64,000 nt of DNA. Source: Fusobacterium perfoetens ATCC 29250 (lineage in GTDB: Bacteria; Fusobacteriota; Fusobacteriia; Fusobacteriales; Fusobacteriaceae). Of this stretch, positions 2,700 to 13,761 are shown piece after piece; position 1 is the stretch's first letter; every line of letters starts with the position of its first letter. The notes beneath the pieces are model-generated. The model saw only the letters and a program-made list of their open reading frames with translations, was not told the DNA's origin and ran no database searches. The stretch lies in NCBI RefSeq assembly GCF_000622245.1, contig NZ_KK211416.1, forward strand, positions 1 through 64,000, written 5' to 3'. The position numbers and the translations under genes are program-made.

Positions 2700-5261
2700 T
2701 TATTTTGTGTTATCCAAAAGTTTTTTAGTAAGAAGTCTATGTTCCCACATTTCATCTTCTGATTTATAACTTCTTTTTTCAAAAGTACTTTCTGTATAAG
2801 TATCACCAAATATTAAATCAAGAATATGTAAAGAATCTTTTCCAGCTGCTTCTAAAGTTCCTCTACAAGAACCACAATAACTTATTACAGAATCTTGAGT
2901 ACAATCATTAGCTCTTCTAGTATAAATTTTTTCATAAAGAGCTGGATTAGAAGAACAAACCATTCCTCCTACTCCACAACATCTAGTGTTTTCTTTTATA
3001 TTATTCATTTCTTCATATTTATATCCAAGTTCTTTTAATATCCATCTAATATTTTCATGGTGAGATGATACATCTCTAGTTACACAAGAATCATGGATAT
3101 TAAATACAACATCACTGTTTATACCTTTATTTAAACTTTCTTTTGGTAAACCAATTTTTTCCCTCATTAAATCCCAATAAGAAATAACTTTTTTTCCACT
3201 TGTAGAAACAAAAGTTTTATAGCAAGATGGACAAATTGTTATAATTGTATCAGCACCAATTTTTTCAATCTCATCATTAGCCATTTTATTTCTAATTTTA
3301 AATTTATCTTCTTCTCCTATCATATTAGTAACTTTTCCACAACATCTCAACATAGCTGAAACATCATCACCTAAAGTTTCTTTTAAATGAGCATAAACTT
3401 TTTCTACTAATTCAGGTTTATATGCTGGAATTGTACATCCAGGTACAAAAACATATTTAGGAGATTTTTTCTCTTGGACAGATGTACAATAAGTAGGATT
3501 ACATTCTAAAGCTTGTATTCTATCACTATCTACAAGATTTTCTATAACTTGTTTATTTCCATTGTCTCTGATATATTGTCTTTTTAGTTCTATAAAATTA
3601 GATTTTAAATCTAAATCTTTTGGACATTTAATAGTACATTGAGAACATTCATTACAAGAAAAAGCAATCATTTTTTCCATATGTTGATATCCTTTTTCTA
3701 AATAATCTCTAAATAACTCTTTTGGACAAGAAGTATAATCTTTTAACATCATACATTCTTTCATACAAAGTCTACATTCACATTGACGACATCTATCAGC
3801 TTCAAATTGAGCTTGTTCTTGAGTATATCCAAGTGAAACCTCTTCAAAAGATTTTATTCTTTCTTTAGGGTCTAAGTGAGGCATAGATACTCTTCTTTCT
3901 AAAACATCTATCCAGTCAACATCTCTTCTTAATTTTGTATCATAACTAGATGTATCTGAAATCTCTCTTCCCTCTTTTAAATCTTTTTCACTAAGGAATC
4001 TATCTACTGATTCAGCAGCACGACGACCAGTTGCCATAGCTTGTATTACAATTACAGATTCTCCACTAGCATCTCCAGTAATAAATACTTTTTCAATATC
4101 TTTACTTTGAAGAGTTTCTTTATCACATTCAAAAGTAGAATTTCTTTTTTGTGAAAGTAAATTAATTGCAAAACTATTATCAACTTCTTGACCTATAGCA
4201 AAAATAATAGTATCACAAGAAATATCTTTAAGTTGATTTTCATCAAATTTTGGAGAAAATACATGATTCTCATCAAATAGAGATAAACATTTTTTCAAAA
4301 TTATTTTATCAATAGAAGAATCATCTTTTAAACTTATGTTTTTAACTCCATAACCATGTAAAAATTCTATTTCTTCTTCAAAAGCTCCCTTAACTTCTTC
4401 TTTTGATGCTGCCATTTCATCAAATGAACCCTCTAAACATACAGAATAAACTTTTTCAACTCCAGAAATTCTTCTTGAAGTTCTAGCACAGTCCATGGCC
4501 ACATCTCCACCACCAACTACAAGAACAGTTTTTCCTAAATCTAATTTTTTATCTTTTGATAGAGCAGCTTCTTTTAAGAAAGAACTAGCACTTAAAATAT
4601 TTTTAGAAGAAAGATTTGTTCCAACTCTACCTTTATGTTTTCCAACAGCTACAATTACAGAATCAAATTCTTTTAAAAGAGTTTCAAATTCTATATCTTT
4701 TCCAATTTCACAATTCATTTGGAATTTTACGCCTAATTTTTCTAAATAACTAATCTCTCTATTAAGAATATTTCTAGGTAATCTATATTCAGGAATACCT
4801 ACAGCCATCATTCCACCTTTAACAGGTAATTTTTCAAAAACAGTTACTCCATATCCTTTTCTAATAAGGTCTAAAGCAGATTGTAATCCAGAAGGACCAG
4901 CTCCAATAACAGCTACATTTTTATTTTTATAGTCTTCTTTTTCTAAACTCCATAATTTTTCATCATCATAATTATCAGCTATATATCTTTTTAAACCAGC
5001 AATACTCATAGGAGAGTTTATCTCATTAATTTTACATTTTCCTTCACAAGGGTGAGCACAAATTCTTCCTAAAGTTCCAGGTAAAAATAATTTTTCTCTG
5101 ATTGTAAGTAGAGCTTCTTCTCCTTTCCCTTCTCTAAGAAGTCTAATATATTCTTTCACATTTGTATGCATAGGACAAGTAGTGACACAAGCTGGATTTT
5201 CTTCTCCCATACATTCAGAAACTATTTTTTGCATATTTTCAATGATTTCTTCTTTTAACAT
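2700..5261 (-). CDS. GltD-like FAD/NAD(P) oxidoreductase fused to an Fe-S dicluster (CCG) domain
   Basis: An 853-residue cytoplasmic fusion. Residues 15-105 form the Cys-rich GltD-type iron-sulfur domain (C17, C25, C30, C68, C72, C76). Residues 115-450 carry two nucleotide-binding folds (VIGAGPSGLQSA near 118; VVGGGDVAMDCA near 248). A ferredoxin-like segment follows (CRQCECRLC, then CNECSQCTIKC). The C-terminus has two CCG modules (C-x-RCCG-type then CPSC; RCCGVGG then CGSC) like heterodisulfide reductase subunit B and glycolate oxidase GlpC-type proteins. Such proteins move electrons between NAD(P)H, FAD and Fe-S clusters, but the substrate cannot be told from sequence. It sits 11 bases after an EamA transporter, behind a sigma-54 promoter. 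Start chosen by the AAAGGAG site upstream. Confidence 0.85.
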   Translation of the reverse strand: MLKEEIIENMQKIVSECMGEENPACVTTCPMHTNVKEYIRLLREGKGEEALLTIREKLFLPGTLGRICAHPCEGKCKINEINSPMSIAGLKRYIADNYDDEKLWSLEKEDYKNKNVAVIGAGPSGLQSALDLIRKGYGVTVFEKLPVKGGMMAVGIPEYRLPRNILNREISYLEKLGVKFQMNCEIGKDIEFETLLKEFDSVIVAVGKHKGRVGTNLSSKNILSASSFLKEAALSKDKKLDLGKTVLVVGGGDVAMDCARTSRRISGVEKVYSVCLEGSFDEMAASKEEVKGAFEEEIEFLHGYGVKNISLKDDSSIDKIILKKCLSLFDENHVFSPKFDENQLKDISCDTIIFAIGQEVDNSFAINLLSQKRNSTFECDKETLQSKDIEKVFITGDASGESVIVIQAMATGRRAAESVDRFLSEKDLKEGREISDTSSYDTKLRRDVDWIDVLERRVSMPHLDPKERIKSFEEVSLGYTQEQAQFEADRCRQCECRLCMKECMMLKDYTSCPKELFRDYLEKGYQHMEKMIAFSCNECSQCTIKCPKDLDLKSNFIELKRQYIRDNGNKQVIENLVDSDRIQALECNPTYCTSVQEKKSPKYVFVPGCTIPAYKPELVEKVYAHLKETLGDDVSAMLRCCGKVTNMIGEEDKFKIRNKMANDEIEKIGADTIITICPSCYKTFVSTSGKKVISYWDLMREKIGLPKESLNKGINSDVVFNIHDSCVTRDVSSHHENIRWILKELGYKYEEMNNIKENTRCCGVGGMVCSSNPALYEKIYTRRANDCTQDSVISYCGSCRGTLEAAGKDSLHILDLIFGDTYTESTFEKRSYKSEDEMWEHRLLTKKLLDNTK

Positions 5262-5272
5262 GATTTTCTCCT

Positions 5273-6190
5273 TTATCTTTTTTTAGGTTCAATAGCAAAA
5301 ATAAACACTCCAGTTACAATAACTAATCCCCAAATTATAAGATGTAAATTTATAGGAGCTCCAAAAAGAACAATACTAAATATAATTGTCCATAAGGCAG
5401 CAGTTGAATTAAGGGCTGTTCCCATAGCTGCCCCAATTAAATCAACAGCTTTGTACCAACAAAGATATGTTATAGCTCCAAGAATAGCTATTCCACCGAA
5501 TTTGAAAACAGTTCCATTAATTATAACTTCAAAAGCTATACTACAACCACCAGAAAGAGGAACAACTATAAATCCATAAATTATCATAGAGATAAAGTAT
5601 CTTAAACATAAAAATTGTTGTGGAATTGCTTTTATATGGTCTTCATCTTTTATATGTTTCATAGCAAAACCAATAATAACTCCTTCAGAGGCCCAACCTA
5701 AAACAGCTAGTAGAGCAAATAAAATTCCTGTTCCAAAAGTTTCAGGAATATCTCCAGTAGGTTTAAACCCTAACATAAAAGAACCTAAAAGACTAATGAA
5801 AATTCCAAGAACAGCTCTTTTAGTAAGTTTTTCTTTTAATAAGAAATATGAAAGAAGAGCACCAATTCCTGGATAAATAACTGATATACTAGAAGCGTAT
5901 GGAGCTGTAGCATATTTTATGGCTAGTAAATAGGCACTCATTCCTACAGGGGCCCCTACTAAAGCAGCCACAGCTGTGGCTTTTCCTTTTTTAGTCTTTA
6001 AAAGTTCAAAAACTCCTTTTAATTGACTAGAAAAAAGTAAAGTTAAAGCAATCCATAAGAAAGCAAAACTATCATGAAAAAAAGCTGCCACAAGAGGAGG
6101 AACATTAATTTTTCCCATTAAAGTAGAATCAAGTCCCCAAGCTAAACCAACGATAACACCTAATAAAATTCCTTTTGTTCTATTGTTCAT
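5273..6190 (-). CDS. EamA/DMT-family transporter
   Basis: A 305-residue protein with ten predicted membrane segments in two EamA halves (residues about 5-140 and 165-300), the usual layout for drug/metabolite transporters. The family moves amino acids, nucleotides and other small metabolites across the inner membrane, and the substrate here is unknown. It is the first gene of a two-gene unit with the dicluster oxidoreductase (11-base gap) and has an AAGGAG site 7 bases before the ATG. The sigma-54 promoter at 6229-6244 lies about 40 bases upstream. The pairing suggests it moves the substrate or product of the oxidoreductase (inference). Confidence 0.85.
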   Translation of the reverse strand: MNNRTKGILLGVIVGLAWGLDSTLMGKINVPPLVAAFFHDSFAFLWIALTLLFSSQLKGVFELLKTKKGKATAVAALVGAPVGMSAYLLAIKYATAPYASSISVIYPGIGALLSYFLLKEKLTKRAVLGIFISLLGSFMLGFKPTGDIPETFGTGILFALLAVLGWASEGVIIGFAMKHIKDEDHIKAIPQQFLCLRYFISMIIYGFIVVPLSGGCSIAFEVIINGTVFKFGGIAILGAITYLCWYKAVDLIGAAMGTALNSTAALWTIIFSIVLFGAPINLHLIIWGLVIVTGVFIFAIEPKKR

Positions 6191-6228
6191 AAAATACTCC
6201 TTAAAATTTTTTAAACTTATATAAAATT

Positions 6229-6244
6229 AGCAAATAATATGCCA
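6229..6244 (-). promoter_or_regulatory. Sigma-54 (-24/-12) promoter
   Basis: On the minus strand the 16 bases read TGGCATATTATTTGCT. GG and GC are at consensus spacing (TGGCAC-N5-TTGCW, one mismatch). Transcription would start near 6218, about 28 bases before the EamA ATG. A sigma-54 activator gene is divergent and adjacent. Confidence 0.85.
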
Positions 6245-6303
6245 AAAATTTTAAATCTTATTTTTTCAATAAAAAAAATTTTAGAAAAATAAAAAACTAG
6301 AAA

Positions 6304-6348
6304 AGTGTCATCTTTTATAGTATAATTTATGTAATTATTAGTGACACT
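6304..6348. promoter_or_regulatory. Candidate upstream activator sequence
   Basis: Perfect 7-bp inverted repeat AGTGTCA (6304-6310) / TGACACT (6342-6348), 38 bp apart centre to centre. It lies about 85-130 bp upstream of the predicted sigma-54 start site, where enhancer-binding proteins usually bind, and flanks a TATAAT at 6321-6326 that may serve the divergent activator gene (autoregulation). The binding protein is inferred. Confidence 0.5.
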
Positions 6349-6375
6349 GTAATTTAAAATTACAATGGAGGAATT

Positions 6376-7671
6376 ATGAAATTTGATTATAAAATATTAG
6401 AAGAAATAGAAATTGGTGTTATTTTATGTAATATTTTAGGAGAAATTCAATATTCAAATAAATATGCTAATGGATATCTTGAAAGAGAAAAAATAAATGT
6501 TAATGAGATTATAGAAGAATTAAAAGAAAAAGAAGATTTAAAAATGGGATTTAAGTTATTAACAAAAACTTATAAAAATATATTTTTTATGATTTTTTCT
6601 CAAAAAGAAGAGGGAAAATATTTAATTTTATTAAAACAAAAAGATTTTTTTAAAACTATTTTAAATGAAAATGATTCTTATACAAATGAAAAAAAATATA
6701 CCTTTGAAAATGTTATAGGTAAAAGCCCACAAATTTTAAAAGTTATTGATGAATGTAAAAAGATAGCTGATGAAAATAGTAACATTCTTATAACAGGAGA
6801 GAGTGGAACAGGAAAAGAATTTTTTGCTAGAGCTATTCACAATAATAGTTCAAGAAGAAATTTTCCATTTATTCCTGTAAACTGTGGTTCAATACCTAGA
6901 GAACTTATAGAAAGTGAATTATTTGGTTATGAAAGTGGAGCTTTTACAGGAGCTAATAAACAAGGATATATAGGAAAATTTCAATTAGCTAATGGAGGGA
7001 CAATATTTTTAGATGAAATAGGAGAAATGCCACTTAATATGCAAGTTTCTCTTCTAAGAGTTTTACAAGATAAATGTGTAACAAAAATAGGTTCAAAAAA
7101 ATGTACCAAAGTAGATGTAAGAGTAATAGCAGCTACTAATAAATGTTTAAAAGATGAGATAAAAAAAGAAAGATTTAGAAAAGATTTGTATTATAGATTG
7201 AATGCTTTTAATATAAATATTCCACCACTAAAAGAGAGAATAGGTGATATTCCAATATTTTTAGAACATTTATTAAAAGAAAAAAGTATTGAATTAAATA
7301 AACCTATTCCAAAAGTTCCTAAATCTCTTTTCCAAAAAATTATATCTTATTGTTGGCCTGGAAATATAAGAGAGTTACAAAATTTTGTAGAAAACTTTGT
7401 TGTATTAGATGGAATAAGTACTTATGATATAAATTTTGATGAATGCCATTGTATGACACACGATAATTTAGGAAATAGAATTGAAATAAATCAATGTGGG
7501 GTAATAGAAAAAGTAGAGGAAAAAGTTTTACCTTTAGTAGAATTAGAAAAAAGAGAGATAGAAAAAGCTATAAAAATTTATGACGGAAATATGACTCAGA
7601 TTGCTTCTGCTTTAGGAATAAGTAGAAATGCTCTATATAATAAGATGAAAAGATATGGAATAGAAAAATAA
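6376..7671 (+). CDS. Sigma-54-dependent transcriptional activator (PAS, AAA+, Fis)
   Basis: A 431-residue enhancer-binding protein. Residues 1-95 look like a single short PAS-like sensor, and there is no phospho-receiver domain. The AAA+ domain (about 112-340) has Walker A GESGTGKE near 141, the sigma-54-contacting GAFTGA loop near 188, Walker B TIFLDEIGEM near 210 and the RELQNF sensor II region. The C-terminal helix-turn-helix of Fis type is ASALGISRNALYNKMKRYG. It is divergent from the EamA/oxidoreductase pair, which carries a -24/-12 promoter, so it almost certainly controls that pair in response to a ligand sensed by the N-terminal domain. The ligand is unknown. A GGAGG site precedes the ATG, and a terminator follows at 7676-7726. 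Confidence 0.93.
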   Translation: MKFDYKILEEIEIGVILCNILGEIQYSNKYANGYLEREKINVNEIIEELKEKEDLKMGFKLLTKTYKNIFFMIFSQKEEGKYLILLKQKDFFKTILNENDSYTNEKKYTFENVIGKSPQILKVIDECKKIADENSNILITGESGTGKEFFARAIHNNSSRRNFPFIPVNCGSIPRELIESELFGYESGAFTGANKQGYIGKFQLANGGTIFLDEIGEMPLNMQVSLLRVLQDKCVTKIGSKKCTKVDVRVIAATNKCLKDEIKKERFRKDLYYRLNAFNINIPPLKERIGDIPIFLEHLLKEKSIELNKPIPKVPKSLFQKIISYCWPGNIRELQNFVENFVVLDGISTYDINFDECHCMTHDNLGNRIEINQCGVIEKVEEKVLPLVELEKREIEKAIKIYDGNMTQIASALGISRNALYNKMKRYGIEK

Positions 7672-7675
7672 AAAA

Positions 7676-7726
7676 GAAAAAAGGTTGTTACTATTAAAAA
7701 TTAAAATGTAACAACCTTTTATTTTT
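7676..7726. terminator. Bidirectional terminator
   Basis: AAAAAAGGTTGTTAC at 7677-7691 pairs with GTAACAACCTTTT at 7708-7720, with A/T runs on both sides. It separates the convergent sigma-54 activator and winged-helix genes. Confidence 0.88.
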
Positions 7727-8210
7727 ATCTTTTAAATTTATATCCAATTCCCCAAATAGTTATAATATATTCTGGAGAATCAGGATTCTTTTCAATTTTT
7801 TTTCTAATTTTTCTTATAAAAGCCATAATATTACTGTCATCTAAATAATATTCTTCATCCCAGACAGCTTGATAAATTTGTTCTTTAGTGAAAATTTCTC
7901 CTCTATTTTTAGCTAGAAAATAGAGAATATCAAATTCTTTTGGAGTTAATTGAACTTCTATATTATTTTGAGTAACTATTCTTTGTTTGTAGTTAATAAC
8001 TAAAGAATCACAGACAATTTCCTCTATCTCTTTTTTATTTGTATTTCCATCTTCTAATTCTAACATTAAAGACCTAGTTTTTGATGTTAAAAGTTCATCA
8101 ATACCTTCTAAAAATTCAGAAGTATCTTCCTCAATGTTACTATATTTTATTTTGTCATATAACCACTTTAAAAAAGAGGAATTTAAAGATATAAAATTTA
8201 TTTTTTTCAT
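7725..8210 (-). CDS. PhoB/OmpR-type winged-helix regulator lacking a receiver domain
   Basis: A 161-residue protein. The C-terminal ~95 residues form a clear OmpR/PhoB winged helix (LTPKEFDILYFLAKN, FTKEQIYQAVW, then IRKIRKKIE and a terminal IWGIGYKFKR hairpin). The first ~65 residues are acidic and do not show the Asp/Lys pattern of a response-regulator receiver, so control by phosphorylation is not evident. It follows the P-type ATPase at 8222-10852 by 11 bases on the same strand and is probably its cotranscribed regulator. Proteins of this fold bind tandem 7-bp repeats with 11-bp phasing, and such a repeat lies upstream at 10908-10925. Role in Mg2+ or metal control is inferred. Confidence 0.85.
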   Translation of the reverse strand: MKKINFISLNSSFLKWLYDKIKYSNIEEDTSEFLEGIDELLTSKTRSLMLELEDGNTNKKEIEEIVCDSLVINYKQRIVTQNNIEVQLTPKEFDILYFLAKNRGEIFTKEQIYQAVWDEEYYLDDSNIMAFIRKIRKKIEKNPDSPEYIITIWGIGYKFKR

Positions 8211-8221
8211 AAAAAATCCTC

Positions 8222-10852
8222 CTAATTATAAAGTCCATTATATTTTTTTATATAAAATATTTTAAATTTATTTACAACAAAAATATAACTTATAATAATA
8301 AATGATAGAAATATAAAATACCAAATTGGTAGAGATGTAAAACCAATATATTCTACTATAGGACTATATACAAAACAACTAAATATTATCAATCCAATAA
8401 TATTTAGAATTAAAATTCCAAATGAAAATTTACTATTTTTTGATATATCTTTTGATTTTAAAAGTTGTATTATCAAGGTCTGTGTCCAAAGAGAAACTAA
8501 AAACCAACCTGTATGAAATAATCCAATGAATTTATCTTGTAAATCATTGGATAAATTTATAAATAAATCTCCACAAATTTTAGGACACAAGAAATAATAT
8601 AAAAATAGAAAAGTTACAATATCAAAGACAGAACTTATAATACCAAAGTATATCATAAAACTTTCTAAATTTTTAGAGGATATTTTTTGTGGAAAAAAAG
8701 ATACATCTTCATCAATATTATCCCACGGCAAAGTAAAACAAAGTAAATCATAAATTAAATTTAATAATAAAAACTGAACTGCTGTCAATGGTTGAAATGG
8801 TAAAAATATACTTGCTATAACCATTGAAAATATATTTCCAAAATTTGAAGAGAAAGTTATTTTAATATATTTATTGATATTTATAAAAGCCTTTCTTCCC
8901 TCTAATATTCCTTGCTCTAAAATATTTAAGTCATTTTTTAATAAAATTACATCAGAGATATTTTTAACCTCTTCAACTGCAGAATCAACAGAAATTCCAA
9001 CACTAGAATTTTTTAAAGCACCTAAATCATTTAATCCATCTCCTAAAAATCCTACAGTATGTTTTTGTGAATGTAAAATGTCAATAATTTCTGTTTTTTG
9101 GTTAGGAGTTAAATCAGTAAAAATATTATATTTTTCAATAACATTTTTTAAAGATTCTTTATTAAGTTTACTTAATTCCAGTCCACTTATTAGGTTTAAA
9201 GGCTTAATATTTAATCTTTTACAAATTGAATAAGTAGTTTTTTCTTGGTCACCAGTTAAAACTTTTATATTAATATTTAATTTTTTTAGATTTTCAATAG
9301 AAAGAGAAGCACTTTCTTTTGGAGGATTGAAAAATACTAAATAACCAACTAATATTAAATCCTTTTCATCTTCAATAGAAAAATTTTCATCAATTTTTTT
9401 ATATGCAACTGCTAAAACTTTCATTCCATCTTCTAAAACTTCATCTATTACAGAATAAATATTTTCTTCATCTTTTTCATTATCAATTTTTTTAATAGTA
9501 TTTTTGTATTTAATATAACCACATTTTTTAAATATATTTTTGACATTTCCTTTTACTAAAATATATTTTTCATTATTATTTTTTACAATAACAGTTGTAA
9601 ATTTTCTTGTGTAATCAAAAGAAATTTCATCAATTTTTTTATTAGAATCTATTAAAGTTTTAAAATATTTTTTTTGACTAGGAATCTCCAAAAGTTTTAA
9701 AATAGATTTATCTAAATAATTTTTATTTTCACTATAATAACTATTTAAAAAAGCAAAATCTAAAACTTCTTTACTTTCATTCCCTAAAATATCCATATAA
9801 TATTCTAAAGAAATTTCATCTTTTGTTAAAGTTCCCGTTTTATCAACACATAAAATATCCATACTTCCAAATTTTTCTAAAGCATTTATATTTTTTATAA
9901 TAGTTGCTTTTTTTTCCATTTGAATACTTCCTTTTGTAAGACAAGCATTGATAACAATAGGAAAAAATTCAGGAGTAAGACCAATAGCTATGGATATTCC
10001 AAGAATAAAAGAATTCAACCACTCTTTTTTTAATAAACCATTTATTAAAAAGGATATTAGAATAAAAATTATTATAAATTTAATAAGAGTAAAAATAAAA
10101 GAATCAAAAGTTTTATTATAATCTTTTTTAGGAAGTTGTAAAATTTTTAATAACTTCCCATAAAGAGTATTTTCTCCTACTGATAAAATAATTCCCTCTC
10201 CATTTCCACTTAAAATATTACTTCCAGCATAAATTATATTATCTAAATTACTATAAGTAGAATTTTTAGAAAATAATTTATCAGAAGTTTTATTTATAAT
10301 CTTACTTTCTCCTGTGATGGCTGATTGAGAAACTAAAACTTTATTTTTAATAAGTCTTATATCTCCACAAACCTTATCTCCAACAGAAAGAATTACAATA
10401 TCACCTACTAATAAATCTTTACTTTGAATTTTTAAAATTTTTCCTTCCCTTCTTACAAAAATTTCACTTTCTATTTTAGAAAAAAGATTTTTGGCTCTAA
10501 GATTAGATTTTAATTCTTGAAAAAATCTTATTCCACCACCTAATAATAAAAATATAATCATAAAAAAAGACATCATTTTATTTTCAGTAAAATTTTTACC
10601 ATCTATGAAATATGAAATTATAGCAATAAAAAATAAAAGTAAATTAAAAAAATTAAAAAAGGATTTTTTCAAACAATCTAAAATTAAAAGTTTTTTAGAA
10701 AAATTTATTATATTTTTTCCATATTTTTTATTATTAATATTTATTTGAGAATTTTTAAGTCCATTTTCAGAGGAATTAAAAATTTTATAAATCTCATTTA
10801 TATCTTTAGAACTTATAGACCTTAAAAAATCTAAATATATATCTTTTTCCAT
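8222..10852 (-). CDS. MgtA-like P-type ATPase, divergent paralogue
   Basis: An 876-residue P3B-like cation ATPase. Visible are an N-terminal cation-ATPase domain, the actuator ITGES, the phosphorylation site DKTGTLT, the nucleotide/P-domain motifs TGDQEKT and GDGLNDLGAL, and about ten membrane segments with the C-terminal cation-ATPase domain. It aligns along its length with the divergent neighbour at 11002-13761. It differs at the TM4 ion-binding motif (PEFFPIV instead of PEMLPMIV) and at the usual GDGINDAxA hinge, so its ion preference may have shifted. It heads an operon with the winged-helix gene. An AAGGAGG site precedes the ATG, and an extended -10 (TGGTATAAT) lies at 10874-10882. Confidence 0.88.
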   Translation of the reverse strand: MEKDIYLDFLRSISSKDINEIYKIFNSSENGLKNSQININNKKYGKNIINFSKKLLILDCLKKSFFNFFNLLLFFIAIISYFIDGKNFTENKMMSFFMIIFLLLGGGIRFFQELKSNLRAKNLFSKIESEIFVRREGKILKIQSKDLLVGDIVILSVGDKVCGDIRLIKNKVLVSQSAITGESKIINKTSDKLFSKNSTYSNLDNIIYAGSNILSGNGEGIILSVGENTLYGKLLKILQLPKKDYNKTFDSFIFTLIKFIIIFILISFLINGLLKKEWLNSFILGISIAIGLTPEFFPIVINACLTKGSIQMEKKATIIKNINALEKFGSMDILCVDKTGTLTKDEISLEYYMDILGNESKEVLDFAFLNSYYSENKNYLDKSILKLLEIPSQKKYFKTLIDSNKKIDEISFDYTRKFTTVIVKNNNEKYILVKGNVKNIFKKCGYIKYKNTIKKIDNEKDEENIYSVIDEVLEDGMKVLAVAYKKIDENFSIEDEKDLILVGYLVFFNPPKESASLSIENLKKLNINIKVLTGDQEKTTYSICKRLNIKPLNLISGLELSKLNKESLKNVIEKYNIFTDLTPNQKTEIIDILHSQKHTVGFLGDGLNDLGALKNSSVGISVDSAVEEVKNISDVILLKNDLNILEQGILEGRKAFININKYIKITFSSNFGNIFSMVIASIFLPFQPLTAVQFLLLNLIYDLLCFTLPWDNIDEDVSFFPQKISSKNLESFMIYFGIISSVFDIVTFLFLYYFLCPKICGDLFINLSNDLQDKFIGLFHTGWFLVSLWTQTLIIQLLKSKDISKNSKFSFGILILNIIGLIIFSCFVYSPIVEYIGFTSLPIWYFIFLSFIIISYIFVVNKFKIFYIKKYNGLYN

Positions 10853-10944: not shown

Positions 10945-10971
10945 TTGACTTTTTTATATCATATCTATGTA
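10945..10971 (+). promoter_or_regulatory. Possible promoter of mgtA
   Basis: TTGACT at 10945-10950 and TATGTA at 10966-10971 with a short 15-base spacer. The -35 is good and the -10 is weak. No Mg2+-sensing M-box can fit in the short leader. Confidence 0.35.
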
Positions 10972-11001
10972 ACAAAAATACTTAATCAAAGGAGGGTGAA
11001 A

Positions 11002-13761
11002 ATGAGAATTAATAAAAATTTTCGTAACACTATTGAAACACAAAATAAAATTTTAAAAAAGGAGAAAATGAAAGAAAAGATTTTTTATTCTTCATCTAAT
11101 GCCTGTGAAGAATTATTAAAAAAGTTTAATAGTTCTATCAAGGGATTAGATGAAAAAAAGGTTGTAGAACACAGAAATTTGTATGGAAAAAATATAGTTA
11201 CTCATGAAAAAAAGAAAACTCTTTTAAAAAAAGTCGTAGAATCTTTTGTAAATCCATTTACAGCTATATTATTTTTCTTAGCAATAGTTTCAATATTTAC
11301 AGATATTATTGTACCAATATATCAAAATAATCCTGAAGAAATTTCTATTCTAACAGTAAGTATAATTTTAATTATGGTCTTTATGTCAGGAGCTTTAAGA
11401 TTTATTCAAGAATCTCGTTCAGGAAATGCTGCTGAAAAATTATTAGCTATGATTACAACTACTTGTACAGTTATAAGAAAGGAAGAGGGAGAAAAAGAGA
11501 TTCCTTTAGATGAATTAGTTGTAGGAGATGTAATTCATCTTTCAGCTGGTGATATGTTACCAGCTGATGTAAGAATTTTAGAAGCAAAAGATTTATTTGT
11601 AAGTCAGTCAGCTATTACAGGAGAAAGTGACCCTATAGAAAAAATTTCTAAAATAAATGAAGAAGAAAATATTTCTATTACTGATTTACAAAATATTGCT
11701 TTTATGGGAAGTAGTGTTATAAGTGGAACTGCTTTGGCTTTAGTAATTTCAGTAGGAGATGATACTTTATTTGGAAATATTGCTTCATCTGTATCAGAAG
11801 AATCTATTGAAACAAGTTTTTCTAAAGGGGTAAACTCTGTGTCTTGGGTTTTAATTCGTTTTATGTTGGTAATGGTTCCAGTTGTATTTTTTATAAATGG
11901 AATGACAAAAGGAAATTGGCTTGAGGCTTTTTTATTTGCTATCTCTATAGCTGTTGGTTTAACTCCAGAAATGTTACCTATGATAGTAACTACTTGTCTA
12001 GCTAAAGGAGCTGTTTCAATGTCGAAGAAAAAAACTATAGTAAAAAATTTAAATTCAATTCAAAATTTTGGAGCTATAGATATTTTATGTACAGATAAAA
12101 CAGGAACTCTTACTCAAGATAAAGTTGTATTAGAATATCATATGGATGTAGAAGGAAAAGAAGATACAAGAATTTTAAGACATGCTTATTTAAATAGTTA
12201 TTTTCAGACAGGATATAAAAATCTTATGGATTTAGCAATAATTGAAAAAACTGAAGAGGAAGAAAATGAAAATCCACAATTAGTGGATTTATCAAAAGAA
12301 TATCATAAAATTGATGAAATTCCTTTTGATTTTACAAGAAGAAGATTATCTACAATAGTTGAAGATAGAAAAGGAAAACGTCAAATGATTACAAAGGGAG
12401 CAGTTGAAGAGATGCTTTCTGTTTGTAAATATGTAGAACTTGAAAATGAAGTAAAAGAATTAGATGAAAAAATTATAAAAAATATTTTAAAAACAGTAAA
12501 CAGATTTAATGAAGATGGCTTTAGAGTTATAGCTATAGCACAAAAAACAAATATTCCAATAGTTGAAACTTACTCAATAGATGAAGAAAATGAAATGGTA
12601 TTAATTGGATATTTAGCTTTTTTAGACCCACCAAAAGAATCTACAACTGAAGCTATAAAAACTTTAAAAGAATATGGAGTAAAAACAAAAATTCTTACAG
12701 GAGATAATGAGAAAGTTACAAGATGTATTTGTAAACAAGTTGGATTAGAAATAAATAATTTACTTTTAGGTTCTGATATAGAAAAAATGAGTGAGATAGA
12801 ACTTATGAAAGCTGTTGAAGAAACAAATGTATTTGCTAAATTATCTCCTGAACAAAAAACAAAAATTGTTACTTCACTTCGTAATAATGGACATATAGTT
12901 GGATTTATGGGAGATGGAATCAATGATGCCTCAGCTATGAAGGCAGCTGATATAGGAATTTCTGTTGATACAGCAGTAGATATAGCTAAAGAATCAGCTG
13001 ATATAATTCTTTTAGAAAAAGATTTAATGGTTTTAGAAGAGGGAATAATAGAAGGACGTAAAACTTATGCTAATATGATTAAATATATAAAAATGACAGC
13101 TTCTTCAAATTTTGGAAATATGTTTTCAGTATTGGCTGCTTCAGCTTTATTACCATTTTTGCCAATGGAAAGTATCCATCTAATACTTTTAAATTTAATT
13201 TATGATTTATCTTGTGGAGCTATTCCTTGGGATAATGTTGATGAAGATTTTATAAAACTTCCTAAAAAATGGGATGCTTCAAGTATAGGAAACTTTATGA
13301 TATGGTTAGGTCCTACAAGTTCTATATTTGATTGGACAACTTATGCTTTTATGTATTTTATTTTCTGTCCTTTCTTTGTATCTCATGGAGTACTTTTTAA
13401 TGATTTAGTAAATCATTATAGTGGAGCTGAACTTCTTCAAATGAAACAAAATTATATAGCTATGTTTCAAGCTGGTTGGTTTGTAGAGTCTATGTGGAGT
13501 CAAACTTTAGTAATTCATATGATTCGTACAAAAAAAATTCCATTTATTCAAAGCCATGCTTCTGGTTCTTTAACTTTCCTAACTTTTACAGGAATAATAA
13601 TTCTTACAATAATTCCTTTCACAAGTTTTGGAAAAGCTATAGGATTTATACCTTTACCATCTTCATATTTTGGATATTTAATTCCTTGTATCTTATTATA
13701 TATGGGACTTGCTACAAGTTTAAAGAAAGCCTATGTAAAACATTTTGGAGAATTATTATAA
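11002..13761 (+). CDS. mgtA: Magnesium-translocating P-type ATPase
   Basis: A 919-residue P3B ATPase of the MgtA/MgtB family. The family imports Mg2+ into the cytoplasm with ATP hydrolysis. Visible are ITGESDP in the actuator domain, DKTGTLT (phosphorylation Asp), TGDNEK and GDGINDASA, and the TM4 motif PEMLPMIVT that is typical of MgtA. The start at 11002 is chosen because GGAGGG lies 7 bases upstream. An in-frame TTG at 10945 falls in the promoter -35 and lacks a ribosome binding site. The gene is divergent from a paralogous ATPase and is followed 15 bases later by a 49-codon membrane-protein gene. Regulation probably involves the direct repeats at 10908-10925. Confidence 0.92.

Follow-up and report, generated by a model that had tools for sequence, protein, structure and literature searches.

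What could a GltD-like oxidoreductase and a small-molecule transporter do together in a fusobacterium, and what switches them on? The question is raised by a locus near the start of a 64,000-nucleotide stretch of Fusobacterium perfoetens ATCC 29250 (GCF_000622245.1, contig NZ_KK211416.1, positions 1 to 64,000; hereafter the window), which is the first part of a 572-kb contig in a genome of 2.10 Mb and 25 contigs. The genes for an EamA-family transporter (eamA) and for the oxidoreductase lie 11 bp apart on the minus strand, no terminator-like site was found between them in a terminator scan, and they form one apparent operon, divergent from the gene of a sigma-54 activator (Table 1). A preliminary description made from the sequence had placed a fusion of GltD and CCG dicluster domains and EamA in one transcript, facing a divergent activator with the GAFTGA motif, and both points were borne out. 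That the activator, its tandem sites and sigma-54 together govern transcription of eamA and the oxidoreductase gene is a prediction that we find strongly supported; what the pair of proteins does can be stated only tentatively.

The promoter element TTGGCATATTATTTGCT ahead of eamA has 0 mismatches to the clostridial consensus TTGGCATNNNNNTTGCT (shuffled window mean 0.01). The −24/−12 element proposed earlier is therefore retained, and the single mismatch then attributed to it is not, the count hanging on the consensus chosen. By arithmetic from the −12 element, transcription of eamA is predicted to start near 6218. Genome-wide, the pattern TGGCAYNNNNNTTGCW gives 5 matches and its reversed control 0; each of the 5 sites has a gene of the same strand immediately downstream, and at 4 the gene of a GAFTGA activator is adjacent. 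The earlier account had made its own validity depend on the presence of rpoN, and this gene is indeed in the genome, with its activator-interacting, core-binding and DNA-binding Pfam domains all over the cut-off. Also, TGT-N11-ACA matches twice in the window (mean of 0.04 in shuffles), both times in the leader of the activator gene and about 85–115 bp upstream of the −24/−12 element, and a scan of all 2.1 Mb of the genome that allowed up to 2 mismatches turned up no second tandem pair. This distance is at or slightly below the 100–250 bp that separate most activator sites from their promoter according to passages of Nie et al. (PMC6615313). That these leader sites let the activator repress its own gene is no more than a guess. 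By eye, the activator gene has a good candidate sigma-70 promoter with TATAAT at 6321–6326, but promoter-like sites occur at chance frequency (31 found, 30.9 expected) and it was left unused.

It may be noted that the other four sigma-54 sites of the genome, three of which adjoin activators, outline a small regulon of amino-acid type. They precede an SDF symporter gene with a serine-dehydratase-alpha gene (which we take to be cysteine desulfidase-like), an AbgT transporter gene, a GltS symporter gene, and an SDF symporter gene with a class-V aminotransferase gene, and lie in L109 (G000:C7:5001-25000), L110 (G000:C8:8000-27000) and L111 (G000:C24:466000-485000).

With the Pfam domains Sigma54_activat, AAA+ lid and Fis-type HTH_8, GAFTGA in its translation and rpoN in the genome, the activator has all the marks of a sigma-54 enhancer-binding protein. 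The preliminary description had called it a PAS/AAA+/Fis protein, of which the AAA+ and Fis parts hold and the PAS part is weak: PAS_GdpP reaches E = 0.0049, below the Pfam cut-off, no PAS chain is found among the matches of the first 106 residues in the PDB, and in a model with a predicted local distance difference test (pLDDT) score of 68 the order of N-terminal strands and helices is PAS-like by eye. Identity with PrdR (NF041552) was rejected at 389.5 bits against a cut-off of 795, the match covering residues 100–428 only.

Does this arrangement exist elsewhere? Among 61 Fusobacteriaceae genomes, 4 have an orthologue of the activator (the window's own, G031 with 97% identity, G023 and G032 with 71% each; the next best has about 45%), and all 4 orthologues adjoin EamA and oxidoreductase genes. 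A single-protein scan of genome contigs led to one locus, in a metagenome-assembled genome (G061) of Tissierellaceae (Bacillota), a family classed under Tissierellia by NCBI and in Clostridia by GTDB. A relative of the oxidoreductase at E ≤ 1e-150 was then found in 4 of the 391 genomes of its class: in G329 all three genes are present, in G061 eamA and the oxidoreductase gene, and in G116 and G380 a paralogue in split form. In the 206 genomes of the Bacillota family of G329, at least 10 have the oxidoreductase at E ≤ 1e-200 and at least 7 the trio (G329, G466, G477 with a short activator open reading frame, G631, G635, G475 and G632); EamA stands beside the oxidoreductase without the activator in G634 and G633, and a MATE pump gene is found at its place in G612. 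These Bacillota counts are lower bounds, the best 2 candidates per genome having been scored in the 391-genome scan and the best 4 in the 206-genome scan. The window activator is 49–55% identical to six Bacillota orthologues. The gene order, for which the preliminary description had suggested a look at other genomes, thus recurs in 4 fusobacterial and 7 Bacillota genomes. In all 11 trio loci the EamA gene adjoins the oxidoreductase gene, and the only genes common to the 11 across the two phyla are the activator, eamA and the oxidoreductase. In G032, G023, G632 and G635 little flanking sequence is available on at least one side, so that missing neighbours there mean little.

The promoter follows the activator in this comparison. 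In 24 regions of 300 bp upstream of eamA, counted from the chosen start codon (G612, which has no eamA, was left out), the −24/−12 element is present at 11 of the 11 activator loci, at 0 of 3 loci without a recognised regulator and at 0 of 10 loci with a MerR-family gene; a Fisher test of 11/11 against 0/13 gives p = 4e-7, which is indicative only since the loci are related. The strict activator site occurs at 9 of 11 activator loci against 0 of 13 others (Fisher 4e-5, again indicative for related loci), and wherever two such sites occur (6 loci) the first two start 18 bp apart, G329 having a third farther on. Therefore, the proposal of an electron-transfer and transporter operon under sigma-54 and activator control, which had been made for the window alone, is upheld by a promoter that tracks the activator and a trio shared by 11 loci. 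The MerR loci belong to 10 other Fusobacteriaceae genomes, in which eamA (57–61% identical for nearly all) comes after the MerR-family gene, assigned by Pfam in G004, G011 and G012 and by clustering with G004 in the rest. The oxidoreductase lies beside eamA in 9 of the 10 (51–55% identical, eight aligned); in G012 the contig ends inside eamA. Judging from gene context, the same enzyme-exporter pair is run by two unrelated regulators, a sigma-54 activator or a MerR protein, each with an invariant pair of cysteines.

These cysteines bear on what the module may respond to. In the activator, C357-x-C359 and C326 are invariant in all 10 aligned orthologues from two phyla (the short 227-residue open reading frame of G477 was left out of the alignment), and a C-x-C was found in 0 of 16 other readable activator linkers from the sampled Fusobacteriaceae loci, a set without one truncated row (L001). 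Between the window protein and its 71% orthologues, the PAS-like N-terminus is only 38–40% identical and the linker, residues 347–369, 100% and 87%. In the MerR regulators of the sister loci a Cys-Cys is invariant in 7 of 7 aligned proteins, the alignment holding 7 of the 10 (G048, cut by the contig end, G011 and G012 were left out). The preliminary description had spoken of a ligand-induced module. Sensing of a ligand is unproven: as the PAS-like N-terminus has diverged and the linker with its Cys-x-Cys is conserved, the activator may with no less probability respond to redox state or to a metal. The activator orthologues of G329 and G466 have an extra cysteine cluster (CDDENC..C) straight after the C-x-C (L129:11616-13004, L142:10198-11598). 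Mutation of the linker cysteines would be a simple way of asking if redox state or metals are sensed via the linker by sigma-54 activators not involved in nitrogen fixation.

The oxidoreductase has the Pfam domains Fer4_20, Pyr_redox_2, Fer4_17 and CCG, the last in two stretches. Its residues ~20–498 match Nfn/Stn chains in the PDB by profile and in a fold search with the AlphaFold2 model (Z 36–39, pLDDT 81), and the ten CCG cysteines (C609, C640, C641, C677, C680, C726, C761, C762, C796 and C799) are conserved without exception in the 21 aligned relatives. For its C-terminal half, the only solved match in a profile search is 9ojn, an ‘iron-sulfur-binding reductase’. Membership in NF045663 (diclust_near_Sec) was rejected, the score of 464.7 bits being below the cut-off of 530, and so was GltD, the small subunit of NADPH-dependent glutamate synthase, for which TIGR01316 gives 268.8 against 471.75 and TIGR01318 231.6 against 482.95. 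The EamA protein scores 84.7 bits in two stretches with PF00892 against a gathering score of 28.2; that it acts as an exporter is presumed.

In a tree of 29 oxidoreductases, a 100/100 branch sets apart the sigma-54 forms together with G612 and G634, a second group (100/99) is made up of the MerR forms, and a third (100/100) is here called clade B. The alignment and tree were built without G032, whose oxidoreductase is cut by the contig end, and without G633, G632, G011, G012 and G041. The window enzyme is nearer to Bacillota enzymes than to most of its own family, which implies a transfer between fusobacteria and Bacillota, in one direction or the other. Clade B has a different context. At its 10 full-length loci EamA lies beside the oxidoreductase in 0 and rhodanese-like genes in 10, several of the rhodanese-like proteins having signal-peptide-like starts by eye, and a VTT/TVP38 gene with ABC-transporter genes including a solute-binding protein is present in 9 of the 10, the tenth being cut by a contig end. 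These neighbours were assigned by Pfam for the L103 members only and for the others by clustering, annotation or resemblance. The clade-B operon of Fusobacteriaceae has the look of a separate sulfur/chalcogen module. It is seen in L095, L097, L100, L102-L106, L108, L116 and L152, in most with a CDP-alcohol transferase, and some species carry it on a large plasmid, namely pILYOP01 in Ilyobacter polytropus and one of Cetobacterium somerae; a search of plasmids brought up three relatives, all of clade B and with less than 60% identity, and no enzyme of the window's own type. Stand-alone dicluster-CCG-like proteins occur in operons of clade-B type at L117:8427-9578 (383 residues) and L120:8345-9490 (381 residues), and the next gene in L120 encodes by eye a dihydrolipoamide dehydrogenase-type flavoprotein, as if replacing the fused NAD(P)H domain. 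The split clade-B-like relatives of the Bacillota G116 and G380 lie near arsenosugar-type glycosyltransferases of TIGR04282/TIGR04283 (by score in G116, by membership of the same BLAST clusters in G380). A LysR protein of G116 scores 219.7 against 250, just under the ‘selenium metabolism-associated’ cut-off.

How could these parts work together? We tentatively favour, at something short of an even chance, a self-contained and inducible module in which a thiol/chalcogen-type reductase and an EamA exporter stand under the sigma-54 activator. The activator would bind its two tandem TGT-N11-ACA sites and bring about sigma-54 transcription of both genes, the inducer being a thiol-reactive, redox or metal(loid) cue that may be read via the conserved Cys-x-Cys linker, as the conserved cysteines of the regulators suggest. 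Because residues ~20–498 match Nfn/Stn chains and the CCG motifs follow, electrons would pass from NAD(P)H to FAD in the NfnB/GltD-type core, then to [4Fe-4S] clusters and to the two HdrB-type CCG domains. At these domains a small molecule of disulfide, persulfide or other chalcogen/metalloid type may be cleaved reductively; this substrate class is suggested by the HdrB-type motifs, by the rhodanese context of clade B and by one neighbour with a sulfite/nitrite-reductase domain. The latter is encoded next to the activator gene in G475 (L148:13945-14715, a nitrite/sulfite reductase 4Fe-4S domain protein), and its gene may belong to an operon for an anaerobic sulfite reductase. Export of the reduced product by EamA would fit its family and the MATE gene at the eamA position in G612. 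One enzyme-exporter pair under two cysteine-bearing regulators, along with a rhodanese-linked clade, directs the search for a substrate towards the chemistry of sulfur, selenium or metalloids, aldehydes being the chief alternative. A bolder version is doubtful in our view: a little-recognised thiol/chalcogen stress module of anaerobes, with an NAD(P)H-driven, one-chain HdrBC-like reductase and a DMT exporter placed independently under MerR (Cys-Cys) or under a sigma-54 activator that senses by its linker Cys-x-Cys rather than by its PAS-like domain. If true, it would mean a cysteine-linker sensing mode in an activator other than NifA.

Several observations weigh against the thiol/chalcogen reading. 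Since CCG domains also belong to electron-transfer proteins of lactate, glycerol-phosphate and fumarate type, the motif does not in itself imply that a disulfide is reduced. The match between solved HdrB and a stand-alone CCG relative is weak (E = 0.073), and HdrB chains are absent from both lists of the 50 best fold matches, which are filled by matches to the N-terminal part and are silent on the CCG part. The EamA family handles many substrates and transport outwards is an assumption, the linker cysteines of the activator could be structural, 2 of the 11 activator loci are without a strict activator site, and the sulfite-reductase-domain neighbour is present in one locus only. Also, at 4 of the 11 loci the trio has a gene for an iron-containing alcohol dehydrogenase in its neighbourhood (G023, G466, G477 and G631, two close relatives among them; L090:11245-13578, L145:3380-5896, L142:11816-12922 and L143:4571-5689), followed in G023 and G631 (L090, L145) by a short GltD-like gene. 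These neighbours point to alcohol or aldehyde chemistry, and on their account our confidence in the thiol/chalcogen reading was lowered and that in the two rivals they favour was raised. One of these is a module for amino acids or fermentation overflow, in which the molecule exported by EamA would be an amino acid, or else an acid, alcohol or aldehyde derived from one, while the oxidoreductase would rebalance NAD(P)H. We regard it as a serious contender, if an unlikely one, since the other sigma-54 sites of this genome precede the symporter, transporter, serine-dehydratase-alpha and aminotransferase genes listed above, and clostridial sigma-54 regulons mostly serve amino-acid catabolism and fermentation including alcohol synthesis, according to passages of PMC6615313. 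Yet no catabolic gene is common to the 11 trio loci, in the stretches read the −24/−12 pattern lies ahead of eamA only, except for one weaker match inside an open reading frame of G631, and the paralogous clade B goes with rhodaneses.

Internal reduction and export by EamA of a reactive or xenobiotic compound (an electrophile, aldehyde, nitro or azo compound or quinone) would agree with the MerR-type regulators in the 10 sister loci, with the MATE pump that replaces EamA in G612, and with an HxlR-type regulator gene directly downstream of the oxidoreductase in G023, which fits an aldehyde or electrophile better than the thiol/chalcogen reading does. But in the one MerR protein scanned, no known drug-binding domain was found in the C-terminal half at E ≤ 1e-4, and a generalist reductase would hardly call for anything as elaborate as ten CCG cysteines invariant in 21 sequences, so that we hold such detoxification to be improbable. 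An exported redox shuttle, whereby the enzyme reduces a quinone- or flavin-like molecule that EamA sends to outside acceptors, would make use of both an NAD(P)H-linked iron-sulfur enzyme and a small-molecule transporter, and CCG proteins can pass electrons to quinone-like acceptors; no gene beyond the trio is common to the 11 loci to speak for it, most other neighbours not having been scanned with family models, and we give it little credence. Very improbable, and already disfavoured, is that the enzyme is the small subunit of an NADPH-dependent glutamate synthase or an Nfn-type transhydrogenase with a fortuitous transporter neighbour. Residues 20–498 do align with glutamate synthase small chains at Z 28–33, below the values for Nfn/Stn; against this stand the TIGR01316 and TIGR01318 scores given above, the want of a partner gene shared by all 11 trio loci and an EamA neighbour conserved over two phyla.

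Table 1. Positions in the window of the genes and predicted elements discussed here
Feature	Position	Strand	Description	Basis
Oxidoreductase	2700..5261	-	853 aa; Fer4_20 and FAD/NAD(P)-binding GltD/NfnB-like core, ferredoxin-like dicluster, two CCG (HdrB-type) domains	Pfam, PDB profile match, AlphaFold2 model/fold search
Two CCG domains of the oxidoreductase	2862..3452	-	~residues 604–800; ten motif cysteines all present	
EamA/DMT-family transporter gene	5273..6190	-	305 aa; first gene of the apparent operon	PF00892
Sigma-54 promoter TTGGCATATTATTTGCT	6229..6245	-	exact consensus match	
Activator site 2, TGT-N11-ACA	6330..6346	.	predicted	motif scan
Activator site 1, TGT-N11-ACA	6348..6364	.	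predicted; starts 18 bp from site 2	motif scan
Sigma-54 activator	6376..7671	+	431 aa; PAS-like N-terminus, AAA+ with GAFTGA, Fis-type HTH; probable YglR orthologue	
C357-H358-C359 in the AAA+/HTH linker of the activator	7444..7452	+	candidate redox/metal-sensing site	

Beyond the activator gene, the window encodes at 7725–8210 a 161-residue protein with an OmpR-type DNA-binding domain and no apparent receiver domain. It is adjoined by two P-type ATPase genes, of which the one at 8222–10852 is over a magnesium-type cut-off and the one at 10945–13761 falls in the same BLAST cluster.

How much of this is new? The preliminary description could name no described pathway for the combination, and here it needs correction: Table 1 of Nie, Dong and Yang 2019 (BMC Genomics 20:565, PMC6615313) lists for Clostridium an activator YglR with the target ‘hyp-gltD’ and the function ‘Unknown’, probably this module. 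The fusobacterial presence, the MerR counterpart, the rhodanese-linked clade B and the Cys-x-Cys linker are apparently new as far as seen, none of them being in the available passages of that paper, whose main text has there no mention of ‘Fusobacteri’ or ‘linker’; a text search of PMC12316311 likewise brought no match to ‘Fusobacteri’, EamA or related terms. PMC3162934 is a sigma-54 comparison that mentions Fusobacterium. Among the matches listed in literature searches on EamA, dicluster proteins, rhodanese, fusobacterial sigma-54 and heterodisulfide reductase, no title or abstract concerned this module. A published regulon of ‘Unknown’ function would thereby become a sharply defined three-gene module in two phyla with a testable class of inducer.

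Comparison with characterized systems places the parts as follows. In fold and sequence, residues ~20–498 of the oxidoreductase are like the NAD(P)H flavoproteins of NfnB/NfnL and StnB type, unlike which the chain is fused to HdrC/HdrB-like CCG domains and has no Nfn partner gene common to the trio loci. With HdrB/HdrD it shares two complete CCG motifs, here after a ferredoxin-like dicluster, and differs by the fused NAD(P)H domain. NF045663 (pyridine nucleotide-disulfide oxidoreductase/dicluster-binding protein) is its best NCBIfam model, and three clade-B members, with 501–515 bits, are likewise under that cut-off. Measured against the spacing of the linker cysteines known for NifA, the activator has one C-x-C and another spacing, and its N-terminal domain is not GAF. 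In alpha- and beta-proteobacterial NifA, conserved cysteines at the AAA+ end and linker start have been proposed as redox sensor or metal ligands (passages of PMC10590331), and the likeness in position is a suggestive parallel and no test. The trio is very probably the YglR/hyp-gltD module, an identity drawn from its make-up and not from published locus tags. In passages of PMC6615313 that module has a YglR activator with a hyp-gltD target operon, a TTGGCATNNNNNTTGCT promoter, and a YglR motif described as resembling TGT..ACA motifs. The window has such a promoter, a TGT..ACA-like site and an activator gene that adjoins two cotranscribed genes, as predicted, one for a membrane protein and one for a GltD-like protein; the published ‘hyp’ can here be named as EamA.

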